This document shows, one piece after another, positions 1,957-61,838 of a stretch of 64,000 bases of DNA. This stretch comes from Candidatus Methanohalarchaeum thermophilum (GTDB lineage: Archaea > Halobacteriota > Methanonatronarchaeia > Methanonatronarchaeales > Methanonatronarchaeaceae), in the NCBI GenBank assembly GCA_001914405.1, contig MSDW01000001.1, positions 1,367,169 through 1,431,168 of the forward strand. Direction: 5' to 3'. The notes beneath the pieces were generated by a model. It saw only the letters and a list, made by a program, of their open reading frames with translations, made no database searches and had not been told where the DNA came from. How positions within the stretch are numbered: position 1 is the first letter of the stretch; every line of letters starts with the position of its first letter. Both the position numbers and the translations under genes were made by a program.

Positions 1957-2408
1957 AGTAGAGAAAGGCAGATAACCTCTCGGCTCTGCTGTGGGGATGA
2001 ATGCAATAACTTAAATGGTCCAACACCAATTAAAAGCTGGTAGTTAGGCGTTCTGCTTCATCAAATTACGCGGTCTCATCATTCATTGGCCAAAGAAAAT
2101 TGGGTGGCCATGAAACTTTTTGAATTAGGGGGTCTAGGTGGCTGATGTGGAGCAGCTGGTGGGAATGAGAGGCCTAGCACCTAGGTGACATATGCTGGTG
2201 GAACATTTGCGGGGCACGCCAGCGGAGTGGATGCAAAGAGCTAACTAATTTTTGCTGTTTTGCCAAAAATTGAGCCTGTCTCTTTCCACGGGGCGCAGGT
2301 TTCTCCTGTTGGCTGGATGTATGAGATAAGTCCAGCGGAGATGCAAAACTTCTTCCATGGATAAGGCTCACAGGGTATGCTCACAGTTTTGCTTTGGGGG
2401 CACTTTAC
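1957..2408 (+). mobile_element. Family A non-coding IS605-like element, copy A1
   Basis: About 450 bp, without a plausible gene, immediately after TTTAT (1952-1956). It matches 12236-12687 closely over most of its length, and shares its core (about 2133-2175) and 3' part (about 2300-2375) with copies at 23560, 40823, 58522 and 61383. A stem GCTGGA/TCCAGC (2312-2317 with 2331-2336) encloses a 13-nt loop. The right end closes with a hairpin-like segment and CACTTTAC, a variant of CACTTCAC in other copies. It looks like a non-autonomous IS200/IS605-type element (MITE/PATE-like) carrying a structured RNA. The frame at 2174-2371 (minus) is only a shadow of the repeat. Confidence 0.7.
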
Positions 2409-3446: not shown

Positions 3447-3760
3447 GATGTGGGCTTTGGGTCCTGAAGGGAGGTTATTTTAATTTCAGGATTATCTCAG
3501 ATACCTGGTTTAACATTAGAACTATTCCCCTGGAAGAAGCCCTTGAAATAAAGCGGAAAGAGAATCCATATGTTAGATCTTTGGATATTTTTTTTAACCT
3601 GTTAACCAAGAAGTTACCTTTCTAGATCTTTTGGTTTAGGTGGGTGGTGAATTGGTTTTTTATTTGGATTAGAGAGGTATATAGGCTTTCCAACTAAGAA
3701 TTGTTTATGTAGAAAATGTTATGGATATTATTTGGGGATGGGGATAAAGGAAGTGTTTCT

Positions 3761-3880
3761 ATGAAAAATAAAGCTATAACTATTAGAGAAGATTAAGTTG
3801 AGTGGTTGGAAGAAAATCACATAAATTTTTCAAGTTTAGTTAGAGAAAAATTAGATGAAGAAATGAAGAGTGAAAGTTGA
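3761..3880 (+). pseudogene. Small ribbon-helix-helix-like ORF upstream of tnpB, in-frame stop
   Basis: Read through one TAA (codon 12), the frame encodes about 39 residues: a beta-strand-like KNKAITIREDxVEW, then WLEENHINFSSLVREKLDEEM. This pattern resembles the N-terminal half of ribbon-helix-helix DNA-binding proteins. The stop would derive from a CAA or similar codon. The 3' end overlaps the start of the tnpB remnant (GTG at 3870), suggesting translational coupling before decay. A role in transposon regulation is inference. Confidence 0.4.
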
Positions 3881-4970
3881 AAAAACCATCGTTTGCAGGA
3901 TATTGGAACCTACAACAGAGAAAAAAGGATTAGTAGTCAAAGAATTATCTAGTGTTAATGGGTACATTCGAGGGGGAACAGGTGACTTGTATTCAGCGAC
4001 TAAGCAGGCTATGGGTAAATATATACAAAAAGATAAGCTAAAGGAACAATATACTTATCCTTTGTTCCTAAGAAATGATACATTTAGGGTTGAAGAAGCG
4101 AAAATATACCAATGAATTTAGTTATTGGGCTAAGATACCTGTTTCTGGTGTTTGGGGTGGGATTTGGGTTCCAATATAAACCACATGGACCAATAAAAGA
4201 AGAATATGAAATAAGTGATTCTAAGGTTGTGTGGAAACCTTATGGTTTTGAGTTGCATCTTTCAGTTGGTTTTGGAGTAGAGCCACAGTCTCCTAAAAAC
4301 ATTCTTGCCATTGACTTGGGGGAAAGGGTTGTGGGTGTGACCGTGTCCACTTCTGATAACGGGAACCCTAAGTCTATATGGCAGGGATGTTAGAGGGATT
4401 AGAGGACATTACGCTTACTTAAGAAAAAAACTACAAGAGAAATCAAAGTCTAAAGTAAAAGAGGTTAAAGACAAAGAAAGTAGAGTAGGGTTGTTGAAGA
4501 TAGATTGCACAACGTATCTAGAGAAATCGTAGGGAAGGCAGATGAAGAGGGTGCGTTGGTTGTTTTGGGTGGTCTCAAAGGGCCTAGGTAACAGAGATAC
4601 GGGTAAGGGGAAGCGAATGAATTGGATATCGAATACAATGCCTTATTACAAACTAACTAAGATGATTACTTATAAAGCCAAGGAAAAAGGAATAAGAGTA
4701 ATCAAGATAAGTGAACGCTTTAGTTCAAAGACCTGTCACAAGTGTGGTAGCGAGAACACAGATAGACCAACACAAGCTAGATTCGATTGCAATACCTGTG
4801 GCTTAAAGAACTATAATGCTGACCTAAATGGAGCCAAAAACATACTATATAGGTCTTTCGCCTACATGGCTGGAGACGGGGCTGTCGTGAACCAGCCCAA
4901 AACCAAGGCATCAATAACGAAACAAGATTATGACACAGAAAAAGTCCTTGGAAACTCCTTCCTAATCTAA
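3870..4970 (+). pseudogene. tnpB: TnpB (IS605 OrfB) RNA-guided nuclease remnant, frameshifted
   Basis: Three successive frames (3870-4115, 4112-4393, 4542-4970) together reconstruct a TnpB. The second contains the first RuvC motif, ILAIDLGERVVGV. The third contains the zinc-finger pairs CHKCGS and CNTCG and the last RuvC motif NADLNGAKNI. At least two frameshifts and missing central sequence make it non-functional as written. TnpB proteins are omegaRNA-guided DNA nucleases that favour retention of IS200/IS605 elements. The C-terminal frame is the best preserved part. Confidence 0.75.
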
Positions 4971-4990
4971 GATTAGGCAGGAGTAGTTCA

Positions 4991-5964
4991 CTGTTCCTCT
5001 TTGGCCGACTCTAAACCAGTCACCAAGACTATATTTAACCAAGGAAATTGTTTTTCTAGGTTACCTTTTACGCCTATTTGTTGTTAGAGTCTGAGGATTC
5101 ATCCAAATTAGATAGACAGTGGGATTGTTTTTTTTATTTAGAAGTCAGATTAAAGCCAATACCCTGTTTTTTTCTTTTATTTAAGTTATTAGAACTATTT
5201 AGGTGTTATGGTTGATTTATTTTTCTATCTGAAGTCAGAAATTTGTGAAGAAGTTTTTTTTAATTTTTAAGATATATAAATGGTTGAGTAAATGTCAGAT
5301 AATGAAAGTAGACTAAGGAATTTTTTATAATTGATGAAGTAGAAGATTTATGTCTTTTAGTTGTAATGGGGTGGGGCATTCTGTGAGAGATTTAGGTTTA
5401 AAGGGATTGGGGGTTATTAATGTTGTTTTTGATTGAAACTGGTTGTTTTTTTGGGTTTTGTCTGATTTTTTGGCCAGTTGCAATATCCTTTTTGTTTGCA
5501 TGAGGTGTATTTGTTGTTCTGCATAGGGGGTTGTGTTGTGAAGGCAAGTCGATGTAGGGTGATGTGAGTAGTTATGGGTAGGTGGGTTAGCGTGAAAAAT
5601 TTAGGATAGGGTGTATGGGTGTGATGTTGTGGACTTGTTGAGGGATGATAAGAGTGATTTCTTTGAGGTTGATGTGTGGTTTTGGTAAGAGCTTGTTTTT
5701 AGGTTTTTCTTTGGAATTTCTTTTTTTTTGGGTGAAAATTAGTTTATTTACTTTAGTTTTGGGTTTTTATTAGGTTTTTTTGTTTTTGTTTTATTGTTTT
5801 TGTTTTGGTTGGCTGGTTTGTTTGGTTAATTTTTGGGTTTGTTGTGGTTTCTGATCTGTTTTTTGGGTGGGTTTTTATTTTTGTTTTTTTATCTGATGGG
5901 ATATGTTTTAAGTAGCATAACGATAATGTTACACATATGTTTGATTTTAGCGTGGTTTGATAAA
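4991..5964 (+). other. Gene-free stretch with a decayed family A copy
   Basis: No convincing gene is seen in this T/G-rich stretch. Between about 5450 and 5700 the order of short blocks matches family A: a GATGTAGGG block, GGGTAGGTGGGTTAGC, a GTGAAA block, then a GTGATGTTGTGGACTTGTTG region matching the conserved core. It is best read as an old, strongly diverged copy (A9). Frames between 5753 and 5964 are low-complexity artefacts. Confidence 0.4.
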
Positions 5965-11150: not shown

Positions 11151-11423
11151 TTAAATTTTTTCCTCCTTTAATTTTTTTTTATGTAGAAGATGTATAAAAA
11201 ACTAGGAAACCCAAAAAAAGTTTTTAATGGATTCTTTATGCATCTATTATTTTCTACATCTATATATTGGTTTTATTAGGTATTAAACATGTAAGACATA
11301 TTTATATATCATATAAAGTTGTTTTATTATTGTATTATTTAGATATGTTTTTAGAAAATGTCTTTATAAAACATTATTTTACATGTTTTTGTAATGGACC
11401 TGTATAACCCTGTTTTTTAATTT

Positions 11424-11486
11424 ATCTTAGTGGTTGAGAAGAGCCCTTCCAAAATCCCTTGATTTTGGTAGGGGAGGAAGTCACAA
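11424..11486 (+). repeat. Internally deleted mini-element (left end fused to right end)
   Basis: The first half (GTGGTTGAGAAGA) matches the left end of the element at 50904, while the second half (CCTTCCAAAATCCCTTGATT then AGTCACAA) matches its right end at 51195-51238. The whole interior is missing. It sits just after TTTAT, the same context as the full elements. Recombination between the two terminal hairpins is the likely origin. Confidence 0.6.
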
Positions 11487-12235: not shown

Positions 12236-12687
12236 AGTAGAGTAAGGCAGATAATTATATGGCTTGTTGTGAGAGATGAATGCCATAACTTAAATGGTTC
12301 CAACATCAATTAAGACCTGGTAGTTAGGCGTTCTGCTTCGTCAAACGATTTTGGTTACCTTGTTTATTAGTCAAAAAATTGGGTGGCCATGAAACTTTTT
12401 GAAATAGGGGGTCTAAGTGGCTGATGTGGAGCAGCTGGTGGGAATAAGAGGCCTAGCACCTAGGTGACATATGCTGGTGGAACATTTGCGGGGCACGCCA
12501 GCGGAGTGGATGCAAAGAACTATCCACCTCTGGCTGTTTTGCCAAAACTTGAGCCTGTCTCTTTTCACGAAGCGCAGGGTCCTCCTGTTGGCTGGATGTA
12601 TGAGATAAGTCCAGCGGAGATGCAAAACTCCTTCTATGGATAAGGCTCACAGGAAAGCCACTCAACTTAACTGTGAAGGCACTTCAC
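12236..12687 (+). mobile_element. Family A non-coding IS605-like element, copy A2
   Basis: Closest to copy A1 (about 450 bp, same order of blocks). It follows TTTAT (12231-12235) and ends GCACTTCAC. The stem GCTGGA/TCCAGC (12591-12596 with 12610-12615) and the loop TGTATGAGATAAG are intact. A second possible hairpin, GGAG/CTCC, follows it. Two minus-strand frames (12413-12625, 12453-12665) are repeat shadows that recur in A1 only because the DNA recurs. Confidence 0.7.
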
Positions 12688-15702: not shown

Positions 15703-15764
15703 ATTAAAAAAATAAACCAAAATTAACTCTTTACCCAAGAAATCTTTTCTTTAAATATTTTATT

Positions 15765-15975
15765 TAGGTAGGTGAGGAGGCTACAAGGGTTTATACCTTA
15801 TACTTATAATCTTCCTATATAAGGGCCGCCCGGGAATGAGATGATTTGACGGTGGCAGGAAGTAAAACCTCCTTTGACTCTGGAAGCATCCTTCCAAAAT
15901 CCCTTGAGTTTGGTAGGAGAGGAATTCACAAATGGATCAATAATATAATAAGGGAGGGAACCTCATGGATTGCCA
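15765..15975 (+). mobile_element. Family B element remnant with two successive right ends
   Basis: 15836-15928 matches 51147-51238 (TGAGATGATTTGACGGTGGC and following) including its terminal hairpin. A second hairpin (CCTCATGGATTGCCATGAGA, 15961-15980) again ends GGCTTCACAAATGG, the same flank as the first (AATTCACAAATGG). The 5' part of the element is lost or replaced by unrelated sequence (15770-15830). Confidence 0.55.
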
Positions 15976-19147: not shown

Positions 19148-19941
19148 CTAAACTAGAATAAGTAACTAACATAAATATGTCTTTCGGCTATAATAAAAAA
19201 TAAATCACAGCACCTAAAAAAAATAAAAAAAAACCAAAAAATAAAAACTAAATAAAAATAAAAAACTTAAAAAATAATAAACCTAATTAAGTCCTCAAAA
19301 TATGTAATAAAATCAAAATACCAACAAACAACATGGAATATACCTCTTTTTTTTGAAAAACAAAAACAGCTTCTACAAAATCGAGAAAAAAATAATCTCT
19401 CTTTAGATTAGATATTAAAAACTACAAAGGTTAAATATTAAAGATCACAAAGATATCAATTTATTTAACTTTATTACTTAAAAACATATCCCTTGTATCT
19501 CCATATACTAAATATGTAGTATAAGAATAGTTAGAGATTATTTCAACAATTAAAAAAATCTTTAGCCCAATAGCAACTAAACAAGTTTTCGGTAGACCAA
19601 TCTTTCTTTCTAGCTGCTCCTCTTAAGATTAAGATAAATAAATTAATTATCTTTTGTAGGTTTGTAAGGGAGCAACATAGACCCCTTCCTAATCCCTGAT
19701 TAGGAATGGGTAGTTCACTGTAAGATTTTTAGTCTGGAAATTCAAAAATATAAGATGAAAGCTTTTTACAGCAGTAGAAACAATATTTTTCAAAACAAAA
19801 CAATATCAATTTAAAGGGCGTTGCTTACATGTTTAATGATTTCTATAATTTATTTTTAGTTATCTGAAGAATTTCTTTTTCATGATCGTGAGCGAGTAAG
19901 CCGAAGAGTATTTCATGGTTATTTTGAAGGGGTAATAGACT
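19148..19941 (+). other. Gene-free AT-rich stretch
   Basis: No gene is supportable here. The stretch holds the promoter of the RdhA-like operon (minus strand, near 19170-19185), A-rich low-complexity sequence to about 19600, and one cargo-less mini-element at 19659-19713. Confidence 0.5.
19659..19713 (+). repeat. Mini-element or solo end
   Basis: TTTGTAAGGGAGCAACATAG is followed by the hairpin CCTAATCCCTGATTAGG and GGGTAGTTCACT. The leading part matches 13268-13322 in reverse, and the hairpin and end match the right ends of the TnpB elements (for example 27343-27378). There is no cargo between them. Confidence 0.55.
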
Positions 19942-23559: not shown

Positions 23560-24006
23560 AGTAGAGTATGGCAGAAGATCCTCGCGGCTCTTCCTTTTGG
23601 GATGGATGCCTTAAATAACACTTAAAGGGTATTATTAACCGGTTGAAGTAGTTGGAAGTTGGTTGGATTGGTTGCTCTATCAAAAAGCGATTTCCATGTC
23701 TCTTGAGGTATTATGGCTAAGTTAAAAGCCCCAATACTCTACATCGAATAAGGTGTATTTGGGGAACTTGAAACCTTTGTGGGTGAGTCCTAGTGGCTGA
23801 TGTAGGATCAATCAAGGCTGAATTAAGGGAACCACTTGGTTAGTATATGACACTATTTTGTGTCCTAATTTAAGTCTTTTCTTGGAGCAAAGAATTCCGA
23901 TGATGATCAGGATGCAGTAAGAGAAGCTCCTCTGGATGGAAAATCAAACTCCACCCCAGATAAGGCTCACACGGAAGCCCCACAGCTTTGCTGTGTAGTC
24001 ACTTGA
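23560..24006 (+). mobile_element. Family A non-coding IS605-like element, copy A3
   Basis: It follows TTTAT (23555-23559) and ends near CACTTGAT, a decayed CACTTCAC. Conserved blocks in order are ACATCGAATAAGGTGTAT, TCCTAGTGGCTGATGTAGGA, TTAGTATATGACA and GATAAGGCTCACA. The characteristic stem is present in a third form, CAGGA pairing with TCCT-C-TG (one bulge). It is about as long as A1 and A2 but clearly diverged. Confidence 0.65.
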
Positions 24007-24774: not shown

Positions 24775-25188
24775 AACTTATTTGGTGAGAAATCTCCTTC
24801 CTTTCTTTGATAGGATGGAGGATGAATCATTACAAGATATTTGTACTTGGGTGGCCAATGGGGGTTTTTGTTGAGAGGTTTTCAGCCTATGAGTCAAGTT
24901 TGAGTGGGCAAGCACTTGAGCGCAAGGCTCCATCGCAATAGATAGGTGGTGGGGTTGGGAACGGGGCTCTTGTGGCCGAGCCTAGGACCAAGGCACATGA
25001 TGGCGATGGACATGGCCATAAGTACTGGAAACCAGTATTTAAGTCCTTGTAGGACCTGCAATATCCTATCAGACCGTGCCTACCTTCGTTAGACCATTCG
25101 GTAACAAGACACCAAACCCTGGATCCCGGTCCTGTGAATGGATGGAAGCACCTTCCTAATCAAGGATTAGGTAGGTGAGGAGGTCACG
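24775..25188 (+). mobile_element. Family D non-coding IS605-like element
   Basis: The left end (ACTTATTTGGTGAGAAATCT, then CCTTCC...GGATGGAGGATGAATCA) and the right end (GGAAGCACCTTCCTAATCAA, GGATTAGGTAGGTGAGGAGG, TCACGC) match the general end layout of the other elements. The roughly 330-nt interior is more GC-rich than its surroundings, contains many short self-complementary blocks (for example AAGTCCTTGTAGGACCTG, GAACGGGGCTCTTGTGGCCG) and is not similar to family A. No gene is seen. A structured RNA is likely. Confidence 0.55.
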
Positions 25189-25823: not shown

Positions 25824-26007
25824 GGTTTTAGCGTTATTTAGATTTGGGTTTTTATCTTATTTTATAGTTTTTTTGTTGTAACTAATTTAAAGTTTTATCT
25901 ATTTGACTGAGAAGACATCCTCCTATATCTCTGATTTAGGTGGGTGATGAATCAGTCCTAGGAAAAGGTTTAAACATAATCAGAAATATATGCTATATGT
26001 TAGGAAG

Positions 26008-27310
26008 ATGAAGAAGTCTTTGAGACAGAATCTACGTGGACTAACTAAACAAGAATATGAGATATTGAAGAAGATGAGTCATAAGTCCAAGGATCTATAC
26101 AACGAAACTCTCTATGAGGTAAGACAATTTTTCTTCAACAATGGAGAATACCTAAGTTACTACGACGCTTATGAACGGCTTAAAGGTGAAAGCGAGAACT
26201 ACAGAGTCTTATCTTCTCAAATGGCTTAACAAACAATGAAACACGTGGATAAGGCGTTCAAATCATTTTTTAATTTAATTAAAAAGAAAAGAGAAGGTAA
26301 ATACGATGCTGAAGCACATCCACCCCGTTACTTAGATAAAGATGGGTATTTTTCACTAATTTATCCAAATCAGAGTTTCCAGGTTAAAGAAGACCACATA
26401 AGAGTTGGTGTTCCAAAAGGTTTCAGGGAAAAATATGGGTATGACAAAAGAGAAATAAGGATTGATTTCACTTATGAGAAACTTAAACAGAGCCATATAG
26501 ACATTAAGCAATTACATATAATTCCAGGGGCAAAGGCACAGTATTTTGAGTATAGGGTTGTTTATGAGGAGGAGAAGGAACCAGTTGAGGCAAAGGGAGG
26601 GTGCTTGGTTAGGTATTGATTTGGGGTTGAATAATTTGGCTACTTGTGTTGACTATTTTGGGCGCTCATTTATCTTGGATGGGTGATTACTCAAATTGTA
26701 TAACAGGTGGTTTAATAAAGAAGTAGCTAGGTTACAGAGTATTAGGGATAAGCAAGGCATCAAAGAGAATACTAGGAGAATAAATAGATTGTTTCGGGAT
26801 CGAGATAATTACGTGCATGATTATTTGAATAAAGCAATCAAGGCAGTCGTTGACTATTGTAGGGAAAATAAGGTTGAGAAAGTGTTTTGTGGGGATGGAA
26901 AGGGTTGGAAACGAGGAATTAATTTAGGTGGTAGCAACAATGAGAAATTTGTTCAAATATCTTTTGATAAGTTCAAGCAGAAACTTAAGCATAAGTTAGA
27001 GTTCTATGGTATAGAGTTTGAGTTAGTTGATGAATCTTACACTAGTAAGTGCAGTTTCTTTGATAGCGAGTCTATAGAACATCACGAAGAGTACGTTGGT
27101 TCAAGGGTGGAAAGAGGCTTATTTAAAACAAGTGATGGAGTTTTAATAAATGCTGATGTAAATGGAGCGTTAAATATCGCTAAGAAAGGATTAAAAGAAA
27201 TTGATATGGGTAAGCCTGAAACTTTGGGGGTAGGGTGTAGTGGTGGTGTGGACACGCCAAGGAGAATGAGGAAACCTCTTTGGGTTAGGATGCGGCTCAG
27301 GTATAAGTGA
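26008..27310 (+). pseudogene. tnpB: TnpB RNA-guided nuclease, interrupted
   Basis: Four defects interrupt an otherwise near-complete TnpB of about 430 residues: TAA at 26227 (from a Gln codon by context SSQMA-stop-QTMKH), a +1 frameshift near 26600 in a G-rich run, and TGA near 26685 where related copies have CGA. The first RuvC motif, [12 protein letters not shown], lies in the second frame. The late part retains DESYTSKCS and the final motif [15 protein letters not shown]. The usual second CxxC of the zinc finger is not obvious. The fragments 25990-26229, 26236-26619 and 26696-27310 are parts of this gene and not separate genes. Confidence 0.8.
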
Positions 27311-27378
27311 GAGCCTAATTCAAACTTCTCCTGAACCCTCTACCTAATCTTTTGATTAGGTAGGGGTAGTTCACTAAT
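27262..27378 (+). ncRNA. Predicted omegaRNA (TnpB guide scaffold) region
   Basis: The 3' end of the tnpB frame and the right end are nearly identical in the three copies here (27262, 37360 and 60375) despite broken reading frames. GGATGCGGCTCAGGTATAAG followed by TGAGAGCC can fold (GGCTCA with TGAGAGCC). The terminal palindrome follows. By analogy with known TnpB systems this would be the scaffold, with the guide read from the flank after TTCACT. Confidence 0.45.
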
Positions 27379-35074: not shown

Positions 35075-35498
35075 CTTTTGTGAGAGTTTGAGAGAGCAGC
35101 ATAGTCCCCGTCCTTTAGGTAGGGGATGTACTGTCTCTCTCATAAAGCTTATGTATCTTCACGCTTTAGCTTGGGAGTAATGGGTTTTGCTGTAAGCCTC
35201 AAGTCCCCAAGCTGCATGCGGGTGATAGGGCGGTAAGGGACTGAAAACTCCATCGAACATTGGCAAAGCCTATATCGCAAACAGGAGCCCTTTGACAGGG
35301 CTCGACTTGAAGCCACTGCTGTTGATCCAGCCTCTGGAAGCTATTTGGCTGACAAGCTAGGCGAAGGTAGGTAGGTAACCGTTTAGAATGGCTACGAAGA
35401 GAGCGTTTCTCTTCACGCCACTTCCACCGATAACCCGAAAGCAGATGACACCGGTGGATAAGTGGAAGCCTCTCCTTTTAGGGAGAGGAGGATGTCAC
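35075..35498 (+). mobile_element. Family C non-coding IS605-like element (copy C1)
   Basis: A left end with CTTTAGGTAGGGGATG hairpin (about 35108-35130) and a right end CCTCTCCTTTTAGGGAGAGG then AGGATGTCAC. Between them is about 350 nt of GC-richer, strongly self-complementary sequence. Visible stems are CCACCG with CGGTGG (35425-35460), GAGAGCGTTTCTCTTC, and GGAGCCCTTTGACAGGGCTC. A diverged relative is at 12785. There is no open frame worth noting. It is best read as a mobile structured RNA; its relation to known families cannot be decided without a search. Confidence 0.6.
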
Positions 35499-35845: not shown

Positions 35846-36089
35846 AAAATGATAATAGCTTTTCAAAGGAATTAGCTTTTGATTAGTTTTTTGAAGAGTA
35901 ATAGCTTCTAGTTTCTTTGGATTAGAAAAATTTTTTCTCTAGTGTTTTTATTAGTTTTGAGTTCGATTTTTTATCTATTTGACTGGGAAGACATCTTTCT
36001 AAGTCTTTGATTTGGGTGGGTGATGGTTCAGTCTTCTTGAAGACGTTTAATATGATAGTAAATATTAGATGTAAATAATTTTAGTAGGA

Positions 36090-37408
36090 TGAGGAAGTCT
36101 TTGAGACAGAATCTACGAGGGCTAGATAAACAAGAATATGAAATCCTAAAGAAGATGAGTCATAAATCTAAGGACCTATACAACGAAACTCTCTACGAGA
36201 AGGAGACAATACTTCTTCAATAATGGGGAATACCTTAACTACTATAACACCTACAAACGCCTAAAAGATGAAAGCGATAACTACAGGTTTTTATCCTCAC
36301 AGGCCGTACAGCAAACGATGAAGCATGTAGATAAAGCATTTCAATTTTTTTAAGTTAATATAGAGAAAAAAAGAAAAGAGAAGGCAATATACGATGGCGA
36401 AACAAGTCCGCCTAGTTACTTAGATAAAGATGGGCACTTTTCATTAATATTTCTAGGTCAGAGTTTCCAGGTTAAGGAGGATCATATTTGAGTTGGTGTT
36501 CCAAGATGTTTTAGTGAAAGATATGGGTATGATAAAAGAGAAGTCCAAATTGGTTTTTCTTATGTAAGATTTTAATAGGGTTATACTGGTATTAAGCAGT
36601 TATATATTGTTTTAGGAGTAAGAGTAAAATGTTTTGGATGTAGGATAGTTTGTGGGGGGAAAGAGAATTAGTTGGGACGAAGAAGGGTCTTTGGTTAGGT
36701 ATTGATTTGGGGTTAGATAATTTATCTACTTGTGTTGACCACTTTGGGCGCTCATTTATTTTGGATGGGTGATTACTTAAATTGTATAACAGGTGGTTTG
36801 ATAAGGAGGTAGTTAAGTTAGGTTGCAGTCTATAAAGGATGGGCAAGGATTTGAGGGGTGCATAGAGAGAATAAACAAATTATTTTGGAATCGAGATAAT
36901 TACATCCATGATTACTTGAATAAGGTGATTAGGGCAATTGTTGACTATTATAAAGAAAATAGGATAGAGAGGGTGTTTTGTGGTGATGGAAAGGGTTGGA
37001 AGCAGGAGGTAGATTTAGGTGACGGCAATAATGAAGGATTTGTGGAGGTTCCGTTTGATTGGTTTAAGCAAAAGCTCAAGCACAAACTAGGGTATTATGG
37101 TATTATTTAGGGTATTATGGTATTGAATTTGTGTTAGTGGATGAATTTTACACGAGCAAGTGTAATGCTTTAGCTAGCACCGGGTTAAGGAGGAAACCAA
37201 GTTATAGAGGAAGAAGAGTTGAAAGAGGGTTATACAAAACAAATAATGGAACATATATTAATGCTGATGTGAATGGTGCTTTGAATATTGCTAAGGAAGG
37301 TATGTCTGAAACTAATTTAGAGCTGGGGGTAGGAGGTAGTGGTTGTGTGGACACGCCAAGGAGAATAAGGAAACCCTTTGGGTTAAGATGCGGCTCAGAT
37401 ATAAGTGA
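36090..37408 (+). pseudogene. tnpB: TnpB RNA-guided nuclease, heavily interrupted
   Basis: Fragments in several frames correspond in order to the copy at 26008. A frameshift appears in the first 110 nt (near 36200) and a TTTTAA interruption near 36350. The TGA before TTACTTAAATTGTATAACAG (36770) is shared with copy TnpB-2, and a repeated GGTATTATGGTATT (37090-37120) duplicates a few codons and introduces TAG. The +1 insertion of the other two copies near the first RuvC motif is absent here (AAGAAGGGTCTTTGG). The late part still encodes [15 protein letters not shown]. Confidence 0.75.
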
Positions 37409-37475
37409 GAGCATAATTCAAACTTCTCCTGAAATCCCCTTCCTAATCTTCGATTAGATAGGGGTAGTTCACAGT
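37355..37475 (+). ncRNA. Predicted omegaRNA region of TnpB-3
   Basis: Nearly identical to 27262-27378 through GGATGCGGCTCA-like AAGATGCGGCTCAGATATAA, TGAGAGC and the terminal hairpin. One base in the loop and in the palindrome differs (CTTCGATTAG). Confidence 0.4.
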
Positions 37476-40822: not shown

Positions 40823-41287
40823 CTATTCATCGGGGAAGACCTCTTCTTTTCTTTGATTGGAGGGGGATGAATTCGATGTTTTTTAAAATAAAAAAAACTA
40901 ATATTGTGTTGATGGCAGTTGGTTGATTTGTCTGCCTCTTGAACAAAAAGCAATCCCATTGTCTTTGAGGCAATGGTTAAAGCCTCAGACTCTACATCGA
41001 GAGGTGTATAGGTAAGTATTGGGGTGGATAGGTAAGCCCGAAACTTCGGGAGTAGGGAGTCTAGTGGTTGGTGTGGAGCAGCCGCTGAGGAATAAGAGGA
41101 ACCAATGTGAGTTAGTATATGGGAACTGTTCCCTAATCCAATTCTTCCTCAGAGCAATAGGTTCCCTGTTGACGGTGTGGATGAGACAAGGCACCGTGGA
41201 AAACAAACTCCCTTTCTTGGGATAAGGCCTCACAGGGAAGCTTCTTTCTCACCGAACGGATGTGAGGTTAGGTAGGGGGCACTTCAC
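40823..41287 (+). mobile_element. Family A non-coding IS605-like element, copy A5
   Basis: It follows TTTAT (40818-40822) and ends CACTTCAC. It is closely similar along its length to copy A6 (58522-58992, opposite strand). Stem ACGGTG/CACCGT (41172-41177 with 41192-41197) encloses GGATGAGACAAGG. Another hairpin, CCCGAAACTTCGGG, lies near 41037-41050. The right end hairpin is CTCACCGAACGGATGTGAG. The element ends 1 nt before the stop codon of fpoN/nuoN. Confidence 0.78.
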
Positions 41288-50728: not shown

Positions 50729-50903
50729 TTTCGAGGGGGCTTTAACTAAAGAAAATAAAAAACACGAACCCTTCCCCCCAAAACCCAACTACTACCATCT
50801 TTAAATAAAATTAACTCTCAAGCCGAAGTAGTGATCCCAAAGAAACAAGTCAAAAAATATCAAAAGAACCTGACCCGAGCTTAAATAAAAAAAAATAATT
50901 TAT

Positions 50904-51239
50904 CTAGGTGGTTGAGAAGACCCCTTCCTAATCTTTGATTTTGGTAGAGGGATGAATCAACCCAAGGGGTTAAATGATTCTGTGTTTTAGTTAGGTTTTG
51001 GTTGTAGGGCAGGGGCTTTGGCCGAAGTTTATAGCCCGTGGACACAAGGACCTCTGTACCCATCTCCTTGGGTATTTAAAGTTCCTTGGATGAACCCAGG
51101 GGAACCTCCCCGAATAAAGCTTTTTGGATACTCTTGGCCCTGGACTGAGATGATTTGACGGTGGCAGGAAGTAAACCCCTCTGACTCTGGAAGCCTCCTT
51201 CCAAAATCCCTTGATTTTGGTGGAGGAGGAAGTCACAAC
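50904..51239 (+). mobile_element. Family B non-coding IS605-like element (complete copy)
   Basis: It follows TTTAT (50899-50903) and ends GGAAGTCACAA. The left end has CCTTCCTAATCTTTGATTTT hairpin and GATGAATCAA, and the right end CCTTCCAAAATCCCTTGATTTT. The interior holds GGGGCTTTGGCC and GTACCCATCTCCTTGGGTAT inverted repeats and a 3' block TGAGATGATTTGACGGTGGC, shared with the fragment at 15836-15928. There is no gene. It lies 49 nt downstream of the tRNA-Arg 3' end. Confidence 0.65.
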
Positions 51240-51288
51240 ATTAATAGTAATAAAAAACTAAAAAAAGATTTTTTTAGGGTTTTTGAGA

Positions 51289-51376
51289 CGGGCGTGGCGG
51301 GATTTGAACCCGCGATCTGCAGCTTTCACCCAAAAAAGGTAGGAGGCTGCCGCCCTATCCACTAGACTACACGCCC
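51289..51376 (-). tRNA. tRNA-Arg(CCU) with a 15-nt intron
   Basis: The acceptor stem is GGGCGTG (51370-51376 reversed) pairing with 51290-51296, with discriminator G at 51289. The T-loop reads GGTTCAAATCC. Anticodon CCT lies at 51341-51343, preceded by CT. The anticodon stem GCAGC/GCTGC encloses 22 nt rather than 7, so 15 nt (51325-51339) after A37 form an archaeal-type intron at the canonical 37/38 position. CCA is not encoded. The 5' end lies 1 nt after the ilvC stop codon. Confidence 0.93.
51325..51339 (-). other. tRNA-Arg intron
   Basis: The intron, read on the minus strand, is CCTTTTTTGGGTGAA. Removing it restores a 7-nt anticodon loop CTCCTAA. It would be removed by the archaeal splicing endonuclease from a bulge-helix-bulge-like fold. 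Confidence 0.8.
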
Positions 51377-51377
51377 A

Positions 51378-58521: not shown

Positions 58522-58992
58522 GTGAAGTGACCCCTGCCTAACCTCACATCTGTTCGGTGAGGAGAGAGGCTTCCCTGTGAGGCCTTATCCTCGAAAGGGA
58601 GTTTGTTTTCCACGGTGCCTTGTCTCATTCACACCGTCAACAGGGAACCTATTGCTCCAAGTGAAGTCTGGACTTAGGGAACAGTTTTCCCATATACTAA
58701 CTCTCAATGGTTCCTCTTATTTCTCAATGGTTGCTTCACACCAACCACTAGACTCCTTACTCCCAAGCTGTTTCGGGCTTACCCATCTACCCCAATACTT
58801 ACCTATACACCTATTCGATGTAGGGTCTGAGGCTTTAGCCATTGCCTTAAGGGCATGGGATTGCTTTTTGTTCAAGAGGCAGACAAATCAACCAACTGCC
58901 ATCAACACAATGTTAGTTTTTTTTATTTTAAAAAACATCGAATTCATCCCCCTCCAATCAAAGAAAGGAAGAGGGTCTTCCCCGATGAATAG
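58522..58992 (-). mobile_element. Family A non-coding IS605-like element, copy A6 (inverted)
   Basis: The minus-strand sequence is closely similar to A5 (40823-41287), with the same left end (CTATTCATCGGGGAAGACCC after TTTAT) and the same right end (hairpin CTCACCGAACAGATGTGAG, then GGGGTCACTTCAC). Stem bases ACGGTG/CACCGT (58612-58617 with 58631-58636) are kept. The left end abuts that of TnpB-4 head to head. Confidence 0.78.
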
Positions 58993-59122
58993 ATAAAAAT
59001 TATCTATTTGACTGAGAAGGCACCTTGCTAAATTTTTTGATTTGGGTGGGTGGTGGTTTAGTCTTCTGGAAAAGCTTTTAGATATAGTGTGGTAAGCATT
59101 AGGTATGGTCGGATATAGTAGG

Positions 59123-60422
59123 ATGGAGAAGTGTTTGAGGCAGAATCTATGTGGACTAATCAAAAAAGAATATGAGATCCTAAAGTAGATGGGTCATAAG
59201 TCCAAGGACTTATATAATGAAGTGTTCTACGAGAAGGAGACAAATACTTCTTTGACAATGGGGGATACCTTTAACTATTGCAATGCCTACAAACGTTTAA
59301 AAGTTGAAAGTGAGAGCTATAGAGTTTTGGCCTCTCAAATGGCTCGGTAAGCGATGAAGCATGTAGACAAAGCTTTTAAATCTTTCTTCAAGTTAATAAA
59401 GAAGAGAGGAGAGGGGGTAGGTATGATGGTGAAGCTAGTCCACTCCGTTACTTAGAAAAGGATGGATATTTTTTATTGATATTTCCTAAGTCAGAGTTTC
59501 CAGGTTAAAGAAGATCATATTTGAGTTGGTGTTCCAAGAGGTTTCTGTGAAAGGTATGAGTATGATAAAAGAGAAATCCAAATTGATTTCTCTTATGAGA
59601 AGCTTAAACAGAGCCACATTGATATTAAGTAATTACATGTTTTTCTTAGGGCGAAGGCGGAGTATTTTGAGTATAGGGTTGTTTATGAGGAGGAGAAGGA
59701 ACCAGTTGAGGCAAAGGGAGGGTTTTTGATTAGGTATTGATTTGGGGTTAGGTAATTTGGCTACTTGTGTTGACCACTTTGGGCGCTCATTTATCTTGGA
59801 TGGGCGATTACTTATAATCGTATAACAGGTGGTTTAATAAAGAAGTAGCTAAGTTACAGTCAATTAAGGATAGGCAGGGATTTGATGGGAACACGAAGAG
59901 AATAAACAAATTATTCCGGGATCGAGACAACTATGTGCATGATTACTTAGATAAGGCGGCTAAGGCAATTGTTGACTATTGCAGAGAAAATAAAGTTGAG
60001 GAAGTGTTTTGTGGTGATGGAAAGGGGCTGAAAGCAGGATATAAGCTTGGGGGATAAGAATAACCAGAGTTTTGTTGAGGTTCCGTTTGATTGGTTTAAG
60101 CAAAAACTCAAGCACAAACTAGAGTATTATGGCATTAAATTCATGTTAGTGGATGAATCTTACACAAGCAAATGTGATGCTTTAGCCAACACTGAAGTGA
60201 GGAGGAAACCAAGTTATAGGGGAGAAAGAATCGAGAGAGGCTTATACGAAACAAGTGATGGCGTACTGATTAATGCTGACTTAGATGGTGCTTTGAATAT
60301 TGCTAAGAGAGGGTATGTCTGAAACTAATTTGGAGTTGGGAGTAGGAGGTAGTGGTGGTGTGGACACGCCAAGGAGAATAAGGAAACCTCTTTGGGTTAG
60401 GATGCGGCTCAGATATAAGTGA
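59123..60422 (+). pseudogene. tnpB: TnpB RNA-guided nuclease, interrupted
   Basis: Several stops and frameshifts: TAG after ATCCTAAAG (59184), TAA in CTCGGTAAGCGATGAAG (59347), TGA in CATATTTGAGTTGG and TAA in ATTAAGTAATTACATG, plus a frameshift near 60040. It shares the +1 insertion near the first RuvC motif with TnpB-2 (AAAGGGAGGG), but it has CGA where TnpB-2 and TnpB-3 have TGA. The last part retains [16 protein letters not shown] and [15 protein letters not shown]. The frames at 59526-59729 and 60047-60322 are fragments of this gene. Confidence 0.78.
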
Positions 60423-60487
60423 GAGCCTAATTCAAACTTCTCCTGAAATCCCATTCCTAATCTTTTGATTAGGTAGGGGTAGTTCAC
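60375..60487 (+). ncRNA. Predicted omegaRNA region of TnpB-4
   Basis: GGATGCGGCTCAGATATAAG, TGAGAGCC and the final palindrome match 27262-27378 almost base for base. The putative guide would begin with GGAGATAAATAAG after TTCACT. Confidence 0.42.
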
Positions 60488-61382: not shown

Positions 61383-61838
61383 CCCAATGGTTAAGAAGAC
61401 TCCTTCCAAGGTCTTTGATTTTGGTGGGGGATGAATCAATCTATAAGGCTTAAATAGCTCCATCACCAGTTAAAGGTTGGTAGTTGGTTGGCTTTTCTGC
61501 CTTTTTTGAAAAGGCAATTCCATACCCCTTTTGGGGAAATGGGCTAAACGCCCCATGACCAGCATCGAGAGGTGCATGGGTAATCCTGAAACTTTTGGAG
61601 TAAGGGGTCTAGGTGGCTGGTGTAGGGCAGCTGCTGGGAATAAGGGAAAAGCCATTGTGTAGCTAATATATGGGTTCTTGTTTTTGTTCTAATCCAGTTC
61701 TCCCCTCAAAGCATAAGTTCATCTGTTGGCTATATGCATATAGACAAATCCAGCAAATAAAGCAAATTCCTCCTATAGATAAGGCCTCACAGGGAAGCCC
61801 ACTTCCTAAATCTCTGACTTAGGTAGGGATCACTTCAC
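61383..61838 (+). mobile_element. Family A non-coding IS605-like element, copy A7
   Basis: It follows TTTAT (61378-61382) and ends CACTTCAC. The left end is CCAATGGTTAAGAAGACTCC with GATGAATCAA; the right end hairpin is CTTCCTAAATCTCTGACTTA, then GGTAGGGATCACTTCAC. Core block GTCTAGGTGGCTGGTGTAGG is kept. The diagnostic stem is partly broken (GCTATA against TCCAGC). A plus/minus frame at 61470 is a shadow. Confidence 0.68.

Follow-up and report, generated by a model that had tools for sequence, protein, structure and literature searches.

According to the available excerpts of two studies, non-coding elements related to IS200/IS605 transposons are already known under the name of PATEs (PMC3119063; PMC7290912). 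In IS608, the left cleavage site TTAC is recognised by the guide AAAG and the right cleavage site TCAA by the guide GAAT; insertion takes place 3' of the tetranucleotide, which is read by base pairing and not by protein (PMC5934647). TnpB requires a TAM, which is the insertion motif of its element, and the guide records the flank of the insertion (PMC11870625). In the omega-RNA of ISDra2, the last nucleotides of the scaffold pair with a segment ~100 nt upstream, forming a pseudoknot common with Cas12 guide RNAs (PMC10097598). Here we describe short elements of Candidatus Methanohalarchaeum thermophilum that are, quite probably, non-autonomous IS200/IS605 elements with the omega-RNA scaffold of TnpB as their sole cargo, for which both TnpA and TnpB would be borrowed in trans.

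The window analysed here is a stretch of 64,000 nucleotides (C1:1367169-1431168) from a genome of 2.14 Mb in four contigs. The element at 50904..51236 on its forward strand is an RNA-only member of the group designated family D below. It consists of a left end (LE), a D core (50970..51173), part of which shows homology to the omega-RNA region at the 3' end of tnpB6-type genes, and a right end (RE) with GTCAC as the final bases. The first-pass annotation had set the right border at 51239, 3 nt beyond the true end. The element follows the target TTTAT (50899..50903), of which TTAT is the left cleavage tetranucleotide, judging from the sequence and the target rule. In the left guide AAGA (50917..50920), the fourth base, A, pairs with the T of TTAT according to the IS608 rule, and the right guide GAAG (51190..51193) pairs with the right cleavage site TCAC (51233..51236), comparable to GAAT and TCAA of IS608 (PMC5934647). 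The right cleavage site is assigned from the sequence and from the empty site of a B element. A tRNA-Gly(gcc) gene of 91 nt, possibly with an intron, is located 50 nt from the RE of this element (51287-51377, reverse strand).

The end layout that had been proposed from the window does recur in nhmmer searches: LEs carry GAAGAC, a hairpin and GATGAATCA, and REs carry GGAAGC, a hairpin and a terminus closing with TCAC, both across the window and in tnpA-bearing loci. In the genome as a whole, covariance and sequence models gave at least 150 LE and at least 150 RE matches, with a best LE E-value of 6e-15, so that the recurrence of the ends is far beyond chance. The first base of the elements is a C, directly 3' of TTAT or TTAA, and the last bases are TCAC. 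As is characteristic of IS200/IS605, the hairpins are subterminal and a guide lies 5' of each; the left guide is AAGA with TTAT and AAGT or AAAT with TTAA, and the right guide, by reading, is GAAG for TCAC. These are IS200/IS605-type ends, common to tnpB elements and several RNA-only interiors. The fourth target base and the fourth base of the LE guide make a Watson-Crick match in 137 of 149 elements (T-A in 92, A-T in 45), a count that overstates the number of independent events because the copies are related. The co-variation was not forced by the search, since the LE models had no pair at the target and guide positions. Among class IV ends, read by eye, guides behind TTAA mostly end in T and those behind TTAT in A or G, and another tnpA group has TTAC paired with an AAAG guide. 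The 5' T of TTTAT varies, with ATTAT, GTTAT and CTTAT also found, which leaves the tetranucleotide TTAT as the working target; about one third of the elements are preceded by TTAA in its place. The clearest empty site, that of a B element at C1:282915, shows insertion 3' of TTTAA, no duplication and an element end of TCAC. Other comparisons of this kind, including a site from an interrupted tnpA-tnpB element, were less clean.

Clustering of the LE-defined elements (n = 149, from stretches around end matches) yielded families whose letters are our own and may differ from those of the first-pass annotation. Family A has 47 members, mostly of 415-495 nt, family B 25 + 3 members of 413-425 nt, and family D, which includes the element at 50904-51236, has 21 members, mostly of 315-339 nt. 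Family C, represented in the window at 35075-35498, has another LE and was found via DNA search. The remaining classes among the 149 include tnpA/tnpB and tnpB-only elements. There are also 15 copies of terminal-only elements of 60-63 nt, with one hairpin common to LE and RE; across these 15 loci several LE types and RE linkers are seen, as in Haloquadratum. One such element of the window (11421..11484, forward strand, including its TTTAT) has an LE fused to a D-type RE, and another (19646..19717, forward strand) joins a class IV LE (TTAT) to a right end of the GTAGTTCAC type. Too short for a transposase gene, with palindromes near the ends and IS605-related termini, the short elements have the hallmarks of PATEs.

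In the window, cargo A is found with class III ends at 1957..2408 and 12236..12687 and with class I ends at 40823..41287 and 61383..61838, all on the forward strand, and with class I ends on the reverse strand at 58522..58992; the target is TTTAT in each case. A further forward-strand copy with a class III LE has a degenerate right end (23560..24006). The family B element at 24777..25187 follows TTTAA and has the guide AAAT, the family C element at 35075..35498 has a class IV LE and the target TTAA, and a remnant at 15723..15929 keeps the 3' part of cargo D, all on the forward strand. Elements with tnpB, likewise on the forward strand, are a remnant with a class II LE (TTTAA) and an RE of the type ..GTAGTTCAC (3592..4991) and three tnpB-only elements of the tnpB4 group. 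The latter are located at 25899..27374 (broken tnpB, A-like omega-RNA at 27203-27337, target TTTAT), 35975..37472 (broken, A-like omega-RNA at 37297-37428, target TTTAT) and 59004..60487 (A-like omega-RNA at 60310-60450). At 58992-59004, a reverse-strand A element and a forward-strand tnpB element stand head to head and have a common palindromic flank, ATAGATAAAAATTATCTAT.

The nature of the cargoes became apparent when 465 kb of genomic sequence (stretches around end matches) was searched with models of the cores, trimmed of the ends. Besides the standalone copies, all four models recover tnpB 3' ends; these matches invariably have the orientation of tnpB and lie 5-47 nt past the Cas12f1-like_TNB domain (PF07282). 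Within these 465 kb, A matches six tnpB loci (E-values to 7e-14), B six (7e-7), C four (5e-18) and D 11 (7e-8). The A core matches the tnpB4 group, B and C match genes around C2:71260, C1:1170296 and C1:911014, with B additionally matching the el5 group, and D matches the tnpB6 group as well as C1:680303 and C1:842067. Since the matches fall where TnpB guide RNAs are encoded, the cargoes are identified as TnpB guide-RNA scaffolds. For A, B and C, the conclusion that they are omega-RNA scaffolds without a nuclease gene is well supported; D is a candidate scaffold by homology only. The interiors had been described as unrelated cargoes; all four prove to share homology with the stretch of tnpB 3' ends that encodes the guide RNA. 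In family A elements, nt ~104-205 (GGCAGTTGGTTGG..TCTGCC) form a 5' part that shows conserved pairing and has no counterpart at tnpB 3' ends. A reading of B as the 5' portion of tnpA elements (C1:1242949) was abandoned, as a complete B element adjoins a truncated element there.

The standalone copies of A and B have a conserved secondary structure with compensatory changes, and the signal in D is weak. Compared with column-shuffled alignments, the RNAalifold energy has z-scores of -10.8 for A, -8.2 for B and -2.7 for D, and pairs changed on both sides number 30 of 90, 36 of 107 and 11 of 79, respectively. A second computation found compensatory changes in 16 of 52 pairs in A and 23 of 69 in B. 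The sense strand folds better for A, B and D, and C has no clear strand preference. In the omega-RNAs of tnpB4, 88% of cells retain the structure of standalone A (28-69% for slid partners), and the structure derived from C is retained in 73% of cells in tnpB sequences (31-50% for slid partners); the standalone structures of B and D do no better in tnpB sequences than slid controls.

A near-guide pseudoknot is found in three of the cargoes. The terminal hexamer has a full interior partner, of the form GUGNNN, in 38 of 42 A and 23 of 24 B elements, against 14.7 and 5.1 expected from shuffled hexamers, and C has an interior partner in 7/7 tested. In D, a full hexamer partner is present in just 1 of 24 elements, with 7.1 expected by shuffling, and near-guide pairing is likewise absent from the D-like tnpB6 genes. 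Among the RNA-only cargoes the pairs are GUGGAG/CUUCAC in A, GUGACC/GGUCAC in B and GUGACA or GUGGCA/UGUCAC in C. Among tnpB elements they are GUGAAC/GUUCAC in el5 and GUGGAC/GUUCAC in tnpB4, and one C-like tnpB has GUGACU/AGUCAC. The RE hairpin and TCAC are separated by a linker that varies by cargo: it is ..TCACTTCAC in A, ..AGGANGTCAC in B, C and D and ..GTAGTTCAC in most tnpB elements. The A linker accompanies cargo A on ends of class I (51), class III (5) and class IV (4). As the linker hexamer pairs with the interior of the RNA, the cargo-specific RE linker belongs to the RNA.

Homology to tnpB 3' ends could also be had for free. A deletion that takes tnpB must spare the RE, and the adjoining omega-RNA stretch would then survive without function; the elements would be ordinary PATEs, passive deletion derivatives of tnpB elements. 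PATEs with remnants of the tnpB C-terminus, and terminal-only forms of 52 nt produced by repeat-mediated deletion of the core, are known from the available parts of earlier reports (PMC3119063; PMC7290912), and the 15 terminal-only copies of 60-63 nt described above agree with such a process. So do fresh-looking chimeras, such as the one at C1:307126, in which the left part of family A is joined to a tnpB4-type right end, and the youngest copies may indeed have arisen by deletion, with the tnpB 3' end retained through its position next to the RE. As an account of the elements as a whole, however, we consider passive deletion unlikely: the compensatory changes across diverged copies favour selection on the RNA, and the pseudoknot changes in step with the RE linker. 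The behaviour of the target and the phyletic distribution of family A, considered below, speak against it as well.

End classes and cargoes have been recombined. Cargo A occurs with LEs of class I (GATGAATCA), class III (GGCAGAAAACC..GATGAATGC) and class IV (..GATACAC), and C and some A copies have a wholly different LE and hairpin. Across classes I, III and IV, cargo A is nonetheless found at TTAT in 86 cases and at TTAA in none. Cargo B is at TTAA in 30 cases and at TTAG in two, its single TTAT being that of an adjacent class III LE, and cargo C is at TTAA in 12 cases and at TTAT in one. Cargo D is at TTAT in 32 cases and at TTAA in one, and the LE of that copy resembles the LE of the TTAA-type tnpB at C1:680303, which has a D-like RNA. 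Among class IV LEs alone, A is at TTAT in 7/7 and C at TTAA in 11/11 (Fisher 3e-5, kinship ignored), a value that overstates the evidence because the copies are related and represent, by our own estimate, ~7 independent cases. The tnpB elements behave in the same manner, with TTAT in 5/5 of those with A-like RNA and TTAA in 3/3 of those with C-like RNA. The target of each cargo is that of the homologous tnpB group, namely, TTAT for A and D and TTAA for C and for B (el5 group). For D the target is mixed, with one TTAA exception each in the D elements and the D-like tnpB group. The target thus tracks the RNA cargo, not the end class, and this match places the elements at the putative TAM of the homologous TnpB. 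That a cargo keeps one target through exchange of ends is expected from a TAM constraint; under passive deletion, a target that stays with the cargo despite exchanged ends is harder to accommodate. Adjacency to TTTAT, which the first-pass annotation had taken as the common target, holds for A, D, tnpB4 and tnpB6; B and C use TTAA instead, and where TTTAT does occur the working motif is TTAT.

Family A is also found beyond this genus. In a genome taken to be that of archaeon SCG-AAA382B04, which belongs to another genus and is the nearest relative among the genomes compared, the A core is matched at E-values of 1e-57 to 5e-69 and the B core at 5e-41. One of these A copies is complete, with a class III LE, a TTTAT target and an RE. 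A full-length A core in another genus argues further against functionless deletion remnants. BLAST of low sensitivity, limited to the best two candidates per genome, found family A in 2 of 295 genomes of the phylum. Among the proteins, the full-length A-type TnpB (L300 347-1684, 445 aa) has GDGKGWK at the expected site of the RuvC-II glutamate; by eye, neither a clear RuvC-II glutamate nor a zinc ribbon of the usual CxxC form appears to be present. Full-length TnpB proteins also include L030 (358 aa) and L289 (400 aa). The TTAT-type tnpB closest to D, tnpB6, is represented in the genome of Ca. M. thermophilum by short open frames, and the intact D-like TnpB at C1:680303 is TTAA-type.

HEARO elements, which carry the omega-RNA of IscB, are also many-copy RNA elements, often without an ORF. 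Their partner is IscB, not TnpB, and the guide lies at the opposite end of the RNA. In favour of an assignment of the standalone RNAs to IscB, RRXRR/IscB matches are present both here (6) and in the SCG-AAA382B04 genome (12). That the RNAs belong to IscB is nevertheless exceedingly improbable. An iscB gene of the SCG-AAA382B04 genome (L258 820-2034, reverse strand, 404 aa) lies antisense inside class I ends, against the LE-to-RE direction. By eye, the RNA-like sequence that precedes iscB in L258 and L259 differs from the cargoes, and the homology of the cargoes is to tnpB 3' ends. An Rfam search that covered the window and the D and A regions returned just one tRNA and sub-threshold matches, with no family for A or D. 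Blastn of the cargoes against IscB loci, tried with IscB guide RNAs in mind, gave end-like and nested-element matches alone, and the candidate was rejected. The broken iscB of Ca. M. thermophilum itself (L259 1501-2004, forward strand) is split by a further element, one end of which is RE-like (..GTAGTTGAC).

The genome contains 24 tnpA matches, four of them intact. No RNA-only or tnpB-only element has a TnpA of its own; the RNA-only elements must therefore be moved in trans, as the first-pass annotation had anticipated. The same annotation had them all moved by a single TnpA, as unrelated structured-RNA passengers with one set of ends and TTTAT as the target. The hairpin layout common to classes I and II, the mobilisation in trans and the TTTAT adjacency of A, D, tnpB4 and tnpB6 are in line with that reading. 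The strong form is contradicted by the TTAA targets of B and C and by the presence of cargo A on three end classes. In addition, there are at least four tnpA groups with different LEs, and the cargoes are homologous to tnpB 3' ends, all of which makes that reading very improbable. The ends are not uniform either: they differ systematically between cargoes, mainly in the target/guide base and the RE linker. Among 17 tnpA loci inspected, none has TTTAT/GAAGAC/GATGAATCA ends. The intact tnpA of the alpha group (C1:1551317-1551679) has class II ends with the same hairpin layout and TTAA, and its relatives in SCG-AAA382B04 and Methanolliviera have TTAA ends too. By eye, the LE of the beta group (C1:452514) resembles class IV and that of the broken delta group resembles class III. 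One TnpA for all elements is accordingly not supported; the genome has more than one TnpA. One TnpA for end classes I and II alone is possible. Given that each element reads its target through its own guide, the alpha TnpA may serve TTAA and TTAT elements alike. Four tnpA copies of the gamma group (L025, L026, L027 and L028) have two in-frame TAA codons in identical places, as would be expected had an inactivated lineage been mobilised by a different copy and so spread.

Use of TnpB in trans by these elements is, on present sequences, what would best explain both the conserved RNA and the target rule. In the mechanism that we propose, TnpA acting in trans would cleave the element in single-stranded form, 3' of TTAT or TTAA at its left end and 3' of TCAC at its right end, and the excised element would be pasted 3' of a new TTAN. 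The element would transcribe a scaffold that ends at TCAC and continues into the right flank, which would make the flank the guide. TnpB supplied in trans would bind this RNA and cut the empty site left by excision, where the TTAN motif would serve as the TAM beside the guide sequence, and the filled sister copy, used as the repair template, would restore the element. As it is the TnpB protein that reads the TAM, the only insertions from which an RNA would work are those at the TAM of its TnpB, and such a limit would explain why the target follows the RNA despite exchange of ends. In a broader view, these elements would form a guild of guide-RNA-only transposons that borrow TnpA and TnpB, have been under long selection, swap end systems and are constrained by the TAM, so that the partnership of TnpB and RNA, not the transposase, sets their location. 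For this broader view we consider the arguments to be evenly poised.

If the proposed mechanism is correct, PATEs, which are common in halophilic archaea, would have a possible function as portable guide RNAs with a shared nuclease. It raises a testable question, namely, whether non-coding relatives can use TnpB in trans and whether such use sustains non-autonomous elements. For the guide rule of IS608, the genome serves as a natural experiment, with TTAT/AAGA and TTAA/AA[AG]T, to which a further tnpA group adds TTAC/AAAG. It also provides a large set of natural omega-RNA variants that could be matched to TnpB orthologues. Our partial coverage of the literature turned up no account of RNA-only TnpB elements with an RNA-determined target; Meers 2023, for example, may touch on the subject.

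Compared with known systems, the elements are closest in form to the PATEs of Haloquadratum, for which the available part of the description reports no gene, IS605-like subterminal palindromes, no target duplication, many copies and terminal-only forms of ~52 nt, and draws no connection with guide RNAs (PMC3119063). They differ in that the four interior families are homologous to tnpB omega-RNAs, with A and B covarying, and in that the target tracks the RNA. With IS608 they share a left TTAN with a guide of the form AARN', a right TCAN with GAAN' and insertion 3' of the tetranucleotide (PMC5934647). Unlike in IS608, natural TTAT and TTAA variants, with guides changed to match, coexist in one genome, and the RNA-only elements lack tnpA. 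The omega-RNA of ISDra2 is similar in having its scaffold 3' of tnpB, a pseudoknot strand ~100 nt upstream and a 3' guide (PMC10097598), whereas here the element has no tnpB, family A carries an additional 5' segment and is longer on the 3' side, and TnpB would act in trans. Finally, TnpB-mediated retention, or gene drive, likewise couples a TAM equal to the TnpA insertion motif with a guide that records the flank (PMC11870625), but the TnpB is encoded by the element in that system, whereas here it would be borrowed.
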